Shown here piece by piece: positions 14,662 to 58,284 of a stretch of DNA of 64,000 nt. Both the position numbers and the translations under genes were made by a program. This stretch comes from Lacinutrix jangbogonensis. Lineage in GTDB: Bacteria > Bacteroidota > Bacteroidia > Flavobacteriales > Flavobacteriaceae. The stretch covers positions 1-64,000 of the forward strand of contig NZ_JSWF01000012.1 of assembly GCF_000797445.1 (NCBI RefSeq), written 5' to 3'. Position 1 is the stretch's first letter. Every line of letters starts with the position of its first letter. The notes under the pieces were generated by a model. The model searched no databases. It saw only the letters and a list, made by a program, of their open reading frames with translations, and was not told where the DNA came from.

Positions 14662-14812
14662 ATTCCCACGAAGGTGAGAATCTCAATTCTGTATTTTTTT
14701 GGCCGTTTTAACAGGCTATCCACTATATCTTTTTACTTGTTCTCGATACAAATTTGCTAAGGCAAATGCACTCGAACTGACGTAAAAAGGATGCCGTTTC
14801 TATCCTTAACGG
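14662..14812 (-). repeat. Dispersed intergenic repeat, copy 2, with adjoining hairpin repeat
   Basis: Read on the minus strand it has CGTTAAGG...GGCATCC plus T run, an inner inverted repeat (ATTTGC...GCAAAT) with flanks CAGTTCGAG and TCGAGAAC, then AAAAAGATATAGTGGATAG as in copies 1 and 3. It ends in TTCGTGGGAATGG, shared with the hairpin at 50993-51010. It fills the gap between adaptor and permease genes inside the efflux operon. Confidence 0.6.
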
Positions 14813-14822
14813 AACTTTTTAA

Positions 14823-42662: not shown

Positions 42663-43968
42663 TTATTCTTTTAATGTGATTTTTATTAATCCTGTATAGT
42701 TGCTAGAGGTCATTGAATTAAGGATTTCTAGTTCTGGGCCTTCTTTTAAAACATTCATACCTCCTATAGTAGTAGGATCTAAAGCATCTATTTCTGCTTT
42801 TGTTACTTCTTCGTCATTAAGAAAGTACGCGATGTTATCTAAAACAACCGGTTCTGGTTTGCGTTCTACTTTTGGTAGCTCTAAATCCTCAGCATCATTA
42901 AAGTGTTCTTTTTGTATTACAGTTCCTTTTTCCAACTTTAAAATCCCTGGGTTAGAACGGATAACAGTTTTTAATGCTTTTTCATCACATAGGTAGAAAT
43001 CGAAATTTAAGTCGTAAGTCTGTTTTATGTATTGTTTAGCTTCAGCACCAGAAGCCGATAAGCCAATTACTGTGTAACCATTTTTAATAGCTTTGTCTGT
43101 TACTTTTTTAATGTTTTTCAAGCCTTCTTCATTTGCTTTTTCAAGGCTGTAGGCCACAACCATAACGAGATGGTCTTCAGCTAAAAATTTAGCGGTGAAA
43201 TCTTGATCAACAGTTTCAATAGAAAAATCTTTAACAGGAGGATCGTAAGCTTCTACTATAATTTTTGTTTCCACACCAACATAGTCTCCATCCACAGTTG
43301 GGTAACTTCCATCTGTAAGAAACTCTAGGTTTTCTCCACCAACATTAAAAGTCCATGTGAATTCTTGTACAGCCTTTTGCGCGTCTTCTGGTACAAGCAT
43401 ACCATCGGCAATATTTGCACCTACTTTATAGGCTCTAAAATCCCAAGTTGGTAAATGTGTTAACACATGGTATCCAAACCATAAACTACCAATAAAGCCT
43501 AATAAAGCTAAAAGTGTGGTTGGGAATTTGCCGAAAATTGGTTTTATGTGCTTAATTCCAAATACCAAAACAAGAATAAGAATAAGGAGTATTATGTCTT
43601 TTCTGAAACTCTCCCAAGGTTTTAGTTTTAAGAAATCTCCAAAACAACCACAGTCTTTTACTACTTCGAAAAAAAGCGGCGTAAAAGGTTAGGAATGTAA
43701 AAAATACAATCGTTGCTAAAAGCATCCAAATTGTGAATTTGCGCTTATACCCAAGTAATAAAAACACACCCAAAACAACTTCTAAAACAACCACAAATAC
43801 TGAGATTCCTAAAGCATAAGGATCTAAAAAAGGTAAATTTAAAACCTCTGTGCTAAAATATTCCTGTAGTTTGTAGGAGAATCCTAAAGGATCGTTTAGT
43901 TTTATCATTCCCGAAAAAATGAATAATCCTCCAACTAATATTCTGCAAATGTGTACTAAGTATTTCAT
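42663..43968 (-). CDS. BT_3928-type DoxX membrane protein with C-terminal thioredoxin-like domain (frameshifted)
   Basis: The sequenced frames are two pieces (43968-43552 and 43568-42663). One base too many in the 7-base run at 43669-43675 breaks them. Corrected, FYAAFF continues EVVKDCGCFGDFLKLKPWE, the conserved CGCFGD motif of DoxX/BT_3928 proteins, and runs into IKHIKPIFGK. The full protein (434 aa) has four N-terminal helices, one more helix, and a periplasmic domain with a redox-like fold. It is conserved beside DUF1599 and tpiA in Bacteroidetes. Confidence 0.87.
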
Positions 43969-43990
43969 AAATTTTTTATTAAAAATTTTT

Positions 43991-44503
43991 AAATTCCAAA
44001 TAACAAAAACTAAATTCCAAAAGGCTTAATCGGATTTATAAATTCCAAACTTGCTTAGGTGTTTTTAAAAATTCAAAACTTATTTTAATTTATTAATTAT
44101 TGCTGATAATATTTTTCTTAATTCTGAAGCTTCAGCAATTAATTGTTCAATTTTTTGTGTTTTATCTTCATTTAGATCTCTCAATAATTTTAACCAATAT
44201 TCACTTTCTTTAGCTTCCTTTCTTGATATTTTTAGTCTGAATTTTAAATCTTTATCTCCAAGTTTTTCATTCGCTTCTATATAATTCGCTCCAACAGATC
44301 CTGAAGATCTTATTAATTGTTTTCCATCTTCAATATTAGATGTTGTATTGTGTAAACTTCTAACCAAAAACCGACAATCTCTTGCAAATTCATAAGTGCG
44401 TTGTTCAAGATTATATTTTTTTTCGTTATTCAGAATTTTTAGATATTTTTATTTTTCAACACCAGAGTAAGTTTGGAATTTAGTTTTTTGTTATTTGGAA
44501 TTT
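43991..44503 (-). mobile_element. IVS-like element: four-helix-bundle gene between long inverted repeats
   Basis: The left arm 43991-44021 (begins AAATTCCAAATAACAAAAA) is the inverse of the right arm 44472-44503 with one extra base. A second, imperfect arm pair (about 44035-44057 against 44459-44481) extends the complementarity. The arms enclose one gene. The right arm supplies the final codons and the stop of the DUF1599 gene. As RNA the arms would form a stem around the ORF. It sits inside a conserved operon. No transposase. Confidence 0.65.
44080..44433 (-). CDS. Four-helix-bundle protein (23S rRNA IVS-protein family)
   Basis: 117 residues if started at CTG 44433 (LNNEKKYNLEQRTYEFARDC). 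A shorter start at TTG 44367 would lose helix 1. Family motifs: QLIRSSGSVGANYIEANEKL and FRLKISRKEAKESEYWLKLL. Such proteins are encoded in intervening sequences of 23S rRNA genes and in small stand-alone elements; the fold is a pentameric four-helix bundle. No ATG is available in frame. Function unknown. Enclosed by inverted repeats. Confidence 0.8.
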   Translation of the reverse strand: MNNEKKYNLEQRTYEFARDCRFLVRSLHNTTSNIEDGKQLIRSSGSVGANYIEANEKLGDKDLKFRLKISRKEAKESEYWLKLLRDLNEDKTQKIEQLIAEASELRKILSAIINKLK

Positions 44504-45039
44504 GATATTTCGAGATGAATCATTGCAAAAATCGCATAATTAATCATGTCTTGATAATTTGCGTCAATACCTTCACTTACAATTGTTTTACCAGCATTAT
44601 CTTCAATTTGTTTAACTCTTAATAATTTTTGTAGAATCAAATCTGTTAAAGAACTCACGCGCATATCTCGCCAAGCTTCACCATAATCATGGTTTTTATC
44701 TTGCATTAATTGTTTGGTACTAGCTACTTTTTTATCGTATAACACGGTAGCATCTTCGGTGGATAAATCTGGTTGTTCTACAACACCTTTTTCAAGTTGA
44801 ATAAGCGCCATAATAGAATAATTTATAATACCGATAAATTCGCTTTGCTCACCTTCATCAACCTTTCTAACGTCATTTTGTTGCAAACTTCTTATGCGCT
44901 GCGCTTTAATAAAAATCTGATCTGTAAGCGATGGTAATCTTAAAATTCGCCACGCACTTCCATAGTCACTCATTTTATTAATAAACAGACTGCGACAGGT
45001 TTCTATAACAGCATCATATTGTTTTGAAGTATCTTGCAT
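44491..45039 (-). CDS. DUF1599 domain protein
   Basis: 182 residues from ATG 45039. Two tandem copies of one motif are visible: MSDYGSAWRILRLPSLTDQI in the first half and HDYGEAWRDMRVSSLTDLIL in the second, each followed by KxxRxxxLE-like helices. The family is conserved in Bacteroidetes next to the DoxX gene and folP; the function is not known (nucleotide-pyrophosphohydrolase-like helices have been suggested). The last codons and stop lie in the inverted repeat of the inserted element. Confidence 0.85.
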   Translation of the reverse strand: MQDTSKQYDAVIETCRSLFINKMSDYGSAWRILRLPSLTDQIFIKAQRIRSLQQNDVRKVDEGEQSEFIGIINYSIMALIQLEKGVVEQPDLSTEDATVLYDKKVASTKQLMQDKNHDYGEAWRDMRVSSLTDLILQKLLRVKQIEDNAGKTIVSEGIDANYQDMINYAIFAMIHLEISNSK

Positions 45040-45144
45040 ATGTTGTTTCAAATTTCCGTAAATTTCGCATAAAATTGTTTAAAATTCAAGGTTTCACGTT
45101 TATAGTTTTTAAATGTGTTATAAACAACAAACTTAAAGGTATCA

Positions 45145-57297: not shown

Positions 57298-58284
57298 ATG
57301 CAATTAAAAAAACACTTATTAAACAAACGACCAGCGATTGCTGTAATTTTATTTGCTATAGGACTTACTTCTTGTGGTTCTTACCAATATGTAGGGCAAG
57401 ATAGTGATGGCGTTTATGGAGAGGATTATAGACAGGTTGATGTTGTTCAAGCTGATACAAAAGAGAGCGGCGACAATACTTACTACAAAAATTACTTTAG
57501 GGAGAAGTCTATTCAAATGGATACTAATGCTAATCAAGAAGTTTTTGTAGATATAGATTCTTATGAAGGCCAGTATTCAGAGGATAATGTACAAGCCGGT
57601 AATGTGGACACAGGTTATGGTTCTTGGGGAGAAAACAGTACTGAGGTTATTGTAAATGTCAACAATAATGGTTTTGGATGGAACAATGGTTTTGGGTGGA
57701 ACAATGGTTTTGGGTGGAACAATGGTTTTGGGTGGAACAATGGTTTTGGGTGGAACAATGGTTTTGGATGGAACAATGGTTTTGGATGGAACAATGGTTT
57801 TGGATGGAACTATGGTTTTGGATGGAACAATGGTTTTGGATGGAACAATGGTTTTGGATGGAACAATGGTTTTGGATGGAACAATGGTTTTGGTTGGAAT
57901 AATGGATACAGTTTAGCTTATAACTCTACACGAAGAGGTAACGTATATGGTAGAAACTCAGTTTTAGGACGAAGAGTTCAAACGCATGCTAGAACAAGAG
58001 CTAATTCAATAAGAACAAGAACTTCGACTACTCCTAGAACAAGAACTAGAACAACTACTCCTAGAACTAGGACTAGAGGAGCAACAACGCCAAGAGTAAG
58101 AACAACAGCGCCAAGAACTAGAAATAATAGTTCTACACCAAGAAGTTCTACACCAAGGGTAAGAACAACAACACCAAGGACTAGAACTTCTAATACTAGA
58201 TCATCATCTCCAAGAAGCTCTACAAGATCCTCTTCTAGATCCTCCTCTTCTAGGTCTTCCTCAGGAGGAAGACGAAGAGGGTAG
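57298..58284 (+). CDS. Lipoprotein with 13 GFGWNN repeats and R/S/T-rich tail
   Basis: 328 residues in three parts. A lipoprotein signal (LFAIGLTSCGS) and an acidic domain (to about 118) come first. Then 13 tandem copies of GFGWNN (residues 125-202), one with Tyr at the last position. Then a strongly basic tail of RTRTRT, TPRTR and RSSSRSS type. A -7-like box TATTTTTG lies just upstream. Aromatic-glycine-asparagine repeats and an Arg-rich tail suggest a disordered, self-associating or surface-coating protein. No homologue recognised beyond flavobacterial vitellogenin/RS-like proteins. Followed after 39 bp by a FadL-like porin gene. Confidence 0.8.
   Translation: MQLKKHLLNKRPAIAVILFAIGLTSCGSYQYVGQDSDGVYGEDYRQVDVVQADTKESGDNTYYKNYFREKSIQMDTNANQEVFVDIDSYEGQYSEDNVQAGNVDTGYGSWGENSTEVIVNVNNNGFGWNNGFGWNNGFGWNNGFGWNNGFGWNNGFGWNNGFGWNNGFGWNYGFGWNNGFGWNNGFGWNNGFGWNNGFGWNNGYSLAYNSTRRGNVYGRNSVLGRRVQTHARTRANSIRTRTSTTPRTRTRTTTPRTRTRGATTPRVRTTAPRTRNNSSTPRSSTPRVRTTTPRTRTSNTRSSSPRSSTRSSSRSSSSRSSSGGRRRG
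57670..57903 (+). repeat. 13 tandem copies of an 18-bp coding repeat
   Basis: Unit GGTTTTGGATGGAACAAT; copies 2-5 have G for A at one position, copy 8 has TAT for AAT, and copy 13 differs at two positions. The identical block of copies 2-5 points to recent expansion. Because the unit is a multiple of 3, length change keeps the frame. Confidence 0.95.

Follow-up and report, generated by a model that had tools for sequence, protein, structure and literature searches.

Four-helix-bundle (4HB) genes of the S23/IVS family, framed by inverted arms of degenerate heptads, form a real cassette class that we did not find described, and the copy in the window (the whole stretch of 64,000 nt analysed here, from genome G000) is an old member of it. 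The explanation as a whole, a dispersed class of cassettes built from a 4HB gene and inverted heptad arms, with the window locus as one copy, seems to us equally probable to be right or wrong. Since gene and arms are inherited together, and related cassettes occur at unrelated sites, sequence comparison establishes that the cassette is, or once was, mobile as a whole.

A sequence-only reading of the window had placed an IVS-family gene between DUF1599 and DoxX, framed by an inverted repeat of about 31 bp with one extra base and by a second, inner imperfect pair. All of this was confirmed. The enclosed open reading frame matched PF05635 (23S rRNA-IVS/four-helix-bundle; E 1e-15, 58.2 bits vs a cut-off of 33.8) and TIGR02436 (E 1e-22, 80.3 bits vs 24). 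The outer arms, 31 and 32 nt long, are inverted copies save for the one extra base, and reached an arm score of 57, whereas 2000 shuffles scored no higher than 43. The features, in the direction of the mRNA, are as follows.

44491-45051, minus strand: upstream host gene DUF1599 (PF07659), which takes its end from the arm (profile match and ends in relatives)
44472-44503, minus strand: 5' outer arm (mRNA sense) of CAAATNN-type heptads, holding the DUF1599 stop codon (inverted-repeat and heptad analysis)
44458-44482, minus strand: 5' inner imperfect arm (25 nt, 88% complementary to its partner)
44080-44448, minus strand: 4HB/23S rRNA-IVS open frame (PF05635, TIGR02436), no in-frame ATG
44039-44063, minus strand: 3' inner imperfect arm (inner inverted pair)
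43991-44021, minus strand: 3' outer arm (mRNA sense) of inverted heptads (inverted-repeat analysis)
43552-43968, minus strand: downstream host gene DoxX/MauE (profile match)

The three genes are co-directional, with the 4HB frame in the middle, starting behind a TAA stop. Its translation holds the RxxxSxxxNxxE core (R-SSG-S-VGA-N-YI-E), with the leading G of GxxRxxxSxxxNxxE out of place, and is homologous to a solved structure of the family, 2rld (five chains in one entry; E 1e-10). Comparison with the copy in the congener G005 gave a dN of 0.148 and a dS of 1.66 over 100 codons, which argues that the frame was long under purifying selection despite the lack of an ATG. The window copy is an old insertion whose normal start codon is gone and which is perhaps decaying. 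The suggested folding of the arms into a stem around the gene is supported by the predicted structure of the minus-strand RNA from 43960 to 44530 (-99 kcal/mol, z -3.4), where the arms form the outer stem. Likewise, the proposal that the insertion replaced the end of DUF1599 agrees with the protein ends, ..EISNSK* in the window and, for example, ..LNEK* in relatives with an empty site. No rRNA family matched in the 64-kb window, and the element adjoins DUF1599 and DoxX rather than an rRNA gene. An identical stretch of 3309 nt is present on two G000 contigs (C12 42604-45912 and C35 24922-28230; L005, L006) and is probably assembly redundancy.

Counting that of the window, 13 genomes of the genus were compared, and 12 of them have the DUF1599 gene. 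In nine of these 12, DoxX comes next, 8-147 nt past the DUF1599 match, as the sequence-only reading had expected of these neighbours, and this is the insert-free junction that it had proposed to seek in relatives. The other three (G000, G003 and G005) carry the cassette in the gap, with the same arm type. Incomplete forms occur as well, with a lone right-arm remnant in G002 and a lone AAATTCTAAATAAT in G009. Outside the genus, a related 4HB gene occupies the gap in four other genera (L204, L211, L212 and L218, with 80, 64, 62 and 44% protein identity), with arms that are weak by score in L204 and absent in L218. Because of these four copies and the lone arm of G002, the cassette at this site looks old, with several losses. 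Either the gap itself has been occupied since long ago or it has been used more than once, with losses, and it seems to be a hotspot. A tree of the seven copies at this site is compatible with one or several origins (single-clade test, p-AU 0.318). A different short palindrome, starting TGTCATTC, lies in the same gap in G007, G011 and G001 (L041, L042, L044).

Filled and empty sites were also found next to other host genes, which we take, from their sequence, to be thiolase-like, acyl-CoA-dehydrogenase-like and metH-like. Past the thiolase-like gene, on its downstream side, a complete 4HB gene is present in two of 12 genus genomes and a 3' remnant in one; the other nine have neither. The metH-like gap was examined in nine genomes; G005 carries a cassette there (L246), where in G003 the matched parts lie 27 nt apart. 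To judge by the sequence, the gene upstream of L246 terminates in the left arm, and the right-arm heptads supply a new N-terminus to the downstream protein. Stops and starts encoded by arms can alter the ends of host proteins. The empty sites are too diverged to give a near-identical empty/full pair among the sites compared, so a target-site duplication is unreadable.

The gene family is widespread, with PF05635 matches in 11 of the 13 genus genomes and in 116 of 148 Bacteroidota genomes. The eight matches in G000 comprise the window locus, its duplicate contig, four further loci, and one broken copy in two pieces. We examined the flanks of 88 loci, 29 from the genus (of 32 matches, leaving out the duplicate contig and the broken copy of G000), 29 from the family (besides the window, among the matches listed) and 30 from the phylum, the best by score of a longer list. 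The 232 control genes (47 from the window, 185 from a set of 80 named loci) probably include gaps with gene-less hairpins. Arm pairing reached at least the 95th control percentile in 47 of the 88 loci and at least the 99th in 23. Either arm pairing or a heptad array was detected in 62 of the 88, compared to 31 of the controls, and neither signal was found by script in 26. Heptad arrays are not confined to 4HB genes, as 24 of the 232 controls also carry them. A minor signal comes from arrays at lag 8 (11/88 vs 1/232).

Autocorrelation in the flanks of 4HB loci is raised at lags 7, 14 and 21, and in the genus set also at lag 1. Strict period-7 arrays, searched at 168 non-cyanobacterial loci, numbered 23 within 150 nt of the frame (50 kb), compared to 14 farther away (673 kb); near the frame, lags 5, 6, 8, 9, 10 and 11 gave 0, 1, 4, 1, 0 and 0. 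A second periodicity score, computed in 28-nt windows over the 88 loci and controls, did not single out lag 7, since the share of loci above the 95th percentile of the controls was 20% at both lag 7 and lag 8. Arrays of four heptads most often have four of seven columns invariant (41 of 98 arrays). The motif itself varies, from CAAATNN in the window to CAAGANN, CTAGANN and more elsewhere.

The sequence-only reading had advised looking for further copies around other 4HB genes. The exact letters of the arm are absent elsewhere in G000, as all four exact matches lie at the window locus and the duplicate contig. A genome-wide repeat with up to three mismatches was rejected (90 matches vs 98 for the reversed control). 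The arms at other intact G000 sites are of their own types, beating nearly all swapped pairs in L002, L003 and L004 and weak in L001; the contrary case of arms missing around every other copy was thus not observed. As one heptad class is common to most loci, the cross-locus arm control is uninformative. The proteins show purifying selection, with a median dN/dS of 0.07 over 60 stop-free pairs of named loci. For L072 and L073 (dN 0.031, dS 0.071, with a stop in L073) selection looks relaxed. Phage copies of the gene were not found at E 1e-3.

Arm likeness rises with protein identity even at sites without homologous neighbours (4117 pairs, 93 loci, i.e. the 88 and five picked by hand from the 80 named loci). 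An arm score of at least 30 was reached by 83% of 41 pairs at 65-75% identity, 47% of 106 at 55-65%, 8% of 417 at 45-55%, and about 1% below 45%. The pairs are not independent, and those of high identity are drawn from a handful of subfamilies and sites. In the opposite orientation, the proportion at 65-75% identity was 12%, and a Mantel test gave 0 of 999 permutations. These comparisons establish that gene and arms are inherited jointly. The window's subfamily has 11 relatives in six other neighbour clusters; the arms are of AAATTCC type in L205-L210, of AAATCAC type in L214 and L216, and weak in L215 and L217. A different picture is given by the 80 named loci, mostly from Flavobacteriaceae, of which 54 lie in the gap between the thiolase-like and acyl-CoA-dehydrogenase-like genes and 21 just upstream of the thiolase-like gene, as in vertical inheritance, which counts against a mobile class.

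Some gaps thus keep the gene in many species, and together with the 26 loci lacking an arm signal this would suit an ordinary small operon gene whose flanks have collected slippage repeats or terminators. We disfavour this reading and regard it as extremely improbable, because arms are far rarer around controls, are inverted and co-inherited with the gene, and because empty sites exist.

What do the two arms of a cassette share? In the gap between the thiolase-like and acyl-CoA-dehydrogenase-like genes, both arms carry a CAAGA core at 42 loci and differ at two, and upstream of the thiolase-like gene both carry CTAGA at 17; at the remaining named loci of these two gaps, at least one arm has a core that is tied or could not be typed. 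The full CAAGA/CTAGA table reads 44, 0, 2 and 17 for the 63 loci typed in both arms, with 15 others tied or motifless. A switch of both arms at one orthologous site was considered as its meaning and discarded, as the two types flank the thiolase-like gene, with CTAGA loci on its upstream side and CAAGA loci on its downstream side. All that the table shows is a core common to both arms of a cassette. In the CAAGA class (54 loci), own arms match no better than swapped ones (4491 of 5000 permutations were as good), and in the CTAGA class (20 loci) slightly better (59 of 5000). Therefore, the arms share mainly the core rather than a letter-by-letter pairing. This leans towards recognition of the repeated unit, and is also compatible with a loose stem or with hitch-hiking. 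The arms are also biased by strand. AG is enriched in the 5' arm and CT in the 3' arm at 67 of the 88 loci (reverse at 19, two ties) and at 70 of the 80 named loci (reverse at four, six ties). The window core, CAAAT, has no AG.

A simple reading-frame script scored the 4HB gene as running in the direction of both neighbours at all 29 genus loci, at 28 of 29 family loci (one unscored), at 78 of 80 named loci (two unscored) and at 23 of 30 phylum loci. All 57 scored loci of genus and family (58 loci in 31 neighbour clusters) are thus in sense, compared to a baseline of 25 of 49 window genes. Most simply, this bias is accounted for by a promoterless cassette that needs host transcription and would be expressed through read-through of the operon.

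Plasmids of other phyla also carry the gene. Tblastn searches (20 and 30 records) provided 18 loci for analysis, 16 of them cyanobacterial, one from Gemmatimonadota and one from Alphaproteobacteria. Arms beat 95% of swapped pairs at nine of the 18. A period-7 array lies within 200 nt of the gene at 13 of the 16 cyanobacterial loci, some of which share a site (L235, L237), and array positions make up 456 of 6400 near the gene vs 213 of 33980 farther away. By annotation (PLSDB, incomplete), 11 of these 16 genes are in sense, four are antisense to both neighbours, and one lies between convergent genes.

The window element resembles the intervening sequences of 23S rRNA in having a PF05635 frame in a short element with inverted-repeat ends that form a predicted stem. 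The Coxiella IVS frame is described, in PMC4990558, as being under reductive evolution. Unlike those elements, which lie in rRNA, the window element sits between protein genes; its class has heptad arrays as arms, with a motif that follows the protein subfamily, and gene-less versions exist. Strictly IVS-like arms would be selected as a stem cut by RNase III, so that the 4HB message is released and the operon mRNA left unharmed, in a cassette that lives in transcripts. The shared family and layout, the stable predicted fold and the sense orientation throughout genus and family speak for such a role. Yet own arms are not favoured over swapped ones in the CAAGA class, the excess in the CTAGA class is weak, and antisense copies occur in cyanobacteria, so we hold it to be unlikely. 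The IVS-like unit that had been envisaged for the window is largely right, being supported by the protein family, by arms that belong to the element, by the sites empty in nine of 12 genus genomes, by the placement in sense between co-directional genes, and by related genes with related arms at other sites. The antisense and convergent plasmid copies speak against a purely mRNA-borne existence.

Hairpins of inverted heptads were also detected away from 4HB genes. A script found 12 candidates in the flanks of the 168 loci, and 0, 0, 5 and 0 at lags 5, 6, 8 and 9. Seven of these candidates are in the gap upstream of the thiolase-like gene, which is occupied by the 4HB gene in 21 other named loci; there, such hairpins were seen by eye in L104, L109, L113 and L097. 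L143 has a second 4HB gene in this gap. In L142, a lone TTAGCTC heptad array lies about 1270 nt downstream of the 4HB gene, past the thiolase-like gene, with neither a second arm nor a 4HB gene beside it; this gap is the 4HB site in 54 other named loci.

REP/RAYT and MITE systems comprise both gene-carrying elements and gene-less hairpins, and heptad cassettes likewise occur with and without a gene, although the 4HB gene is no known transposase. The hairpins could thus be independent REP- or MITE-like elements moved by something else, with the 4HB gene as a passenger or inserted into them. The gene-less hairpins and the arrays in 24 controls fit this. So do the convergent inverted pairs that Xanthomonas heptamers sometimes form, 70 and 75 of them in two genomes, according to PMC4692102. 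Against it, the arm motif tracks the 4HB subfamily, and Y1 transposases matched in only five of 13 genus genomes (at full length in G000 alone), while 4HB genes matched in 11; a Y1 transposase was therefore rejected as a general mover. Independent hairpins are, in our estimate, quite unlikely. In the cassette reading, gene-less hairpins would be trans-dependent or decayed derivatives.

A retroelement, whose Avd-like 4HB protein would rely on a reverse transcriptase provided in trans, appears very unlikely. Two other 4HB members show a weak similarity to the Avd protein of diversity-generating retroelements (NF033474; 22-29 bits, below the cut-off of 80; E 1e-6 and 1e-4), and RVT_1 matched in six of the 13 genus genomes. 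The window protein did not match NF033474 at E<=0.001. G000, the genus genome richest in PF05635 matches, has no RVT_1 match, and a reverse transcriptase in trans was discarded on this ground.

Avd/S23 proteins are pentameric. We infer that the oligomeric 4HB protein reads its heptads, with their fixed and free positions, on folded RNA or DNA. Such recognition would explain why both arms are kept to one motif while imperfect pairing is tolerated; hitch-hiking of the arms with the gene would give the same link of protein and motif, so recognition stays at the level of inference. The link offers a directly testable recognition code. Similar repeats are known, namely the tandem, degenerate, mostly intergenic heptamers of GGGAATC type in Xanthomonas and Nostoc (PMC4692102) and of TAACTGA type (PMC4679880). 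Neither "four helix" nor "S23" is mentioned in the text of these two papers. The repeats of our loci differ in being the arms of a gene cassette. In searches of open-access papers no link between 4HB genes and heptad arms was found, a weak negative, as subscription papers and preprints lie outside that scope.

Tentatively, a wider picture is possible, which we would sooner doubt than accept. In cassettes of several phyla, a pentameric 4HB protein would read arrays built of 7-nt units, each subunit perhaps taking one, by a code specific to the subfamily. Many heptanucleotide repeats of cyanobacteria (STRR), Bacteroidota and Xanthomonas would be arms, derivatives or scars, and the 23S IVSs a branch resident in rRNA. 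If true, this would join the spread of S23/IVS, the nature of heptanucleotide repeats, and the presence of IVS-protein genes in cas and other operons.

The last of these is visible on our own loci. PMC3936711 lists the 23S_rRNA_IVP family, with the motif GxxRxxxSxxxNxxE, among functions associated with CRISPR-Cas, and the same family lies between cas6 and cas4 in L187 and L189, and between cas10/cmr2 and cmr3 in L234. These copies carry arrays like those of copies elsewhere, of heptads in L187 and L189 and of octads in L234, and therefore look like insertions rather than parts of CRISPR function. Period 8 was found in L234 and in the Gemmatimonadota copy. More generally, a 4HB gene found in a cas or metabolic operon may have been inserted there. 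Elsewhere in the window, we noted a Flavo-1 RNA (RF01705) at 14705-14814 on the minus strand, and a tandem repeat at 57667-57905 with a unit of 18 nt, 13.3 copies and 97% matches.
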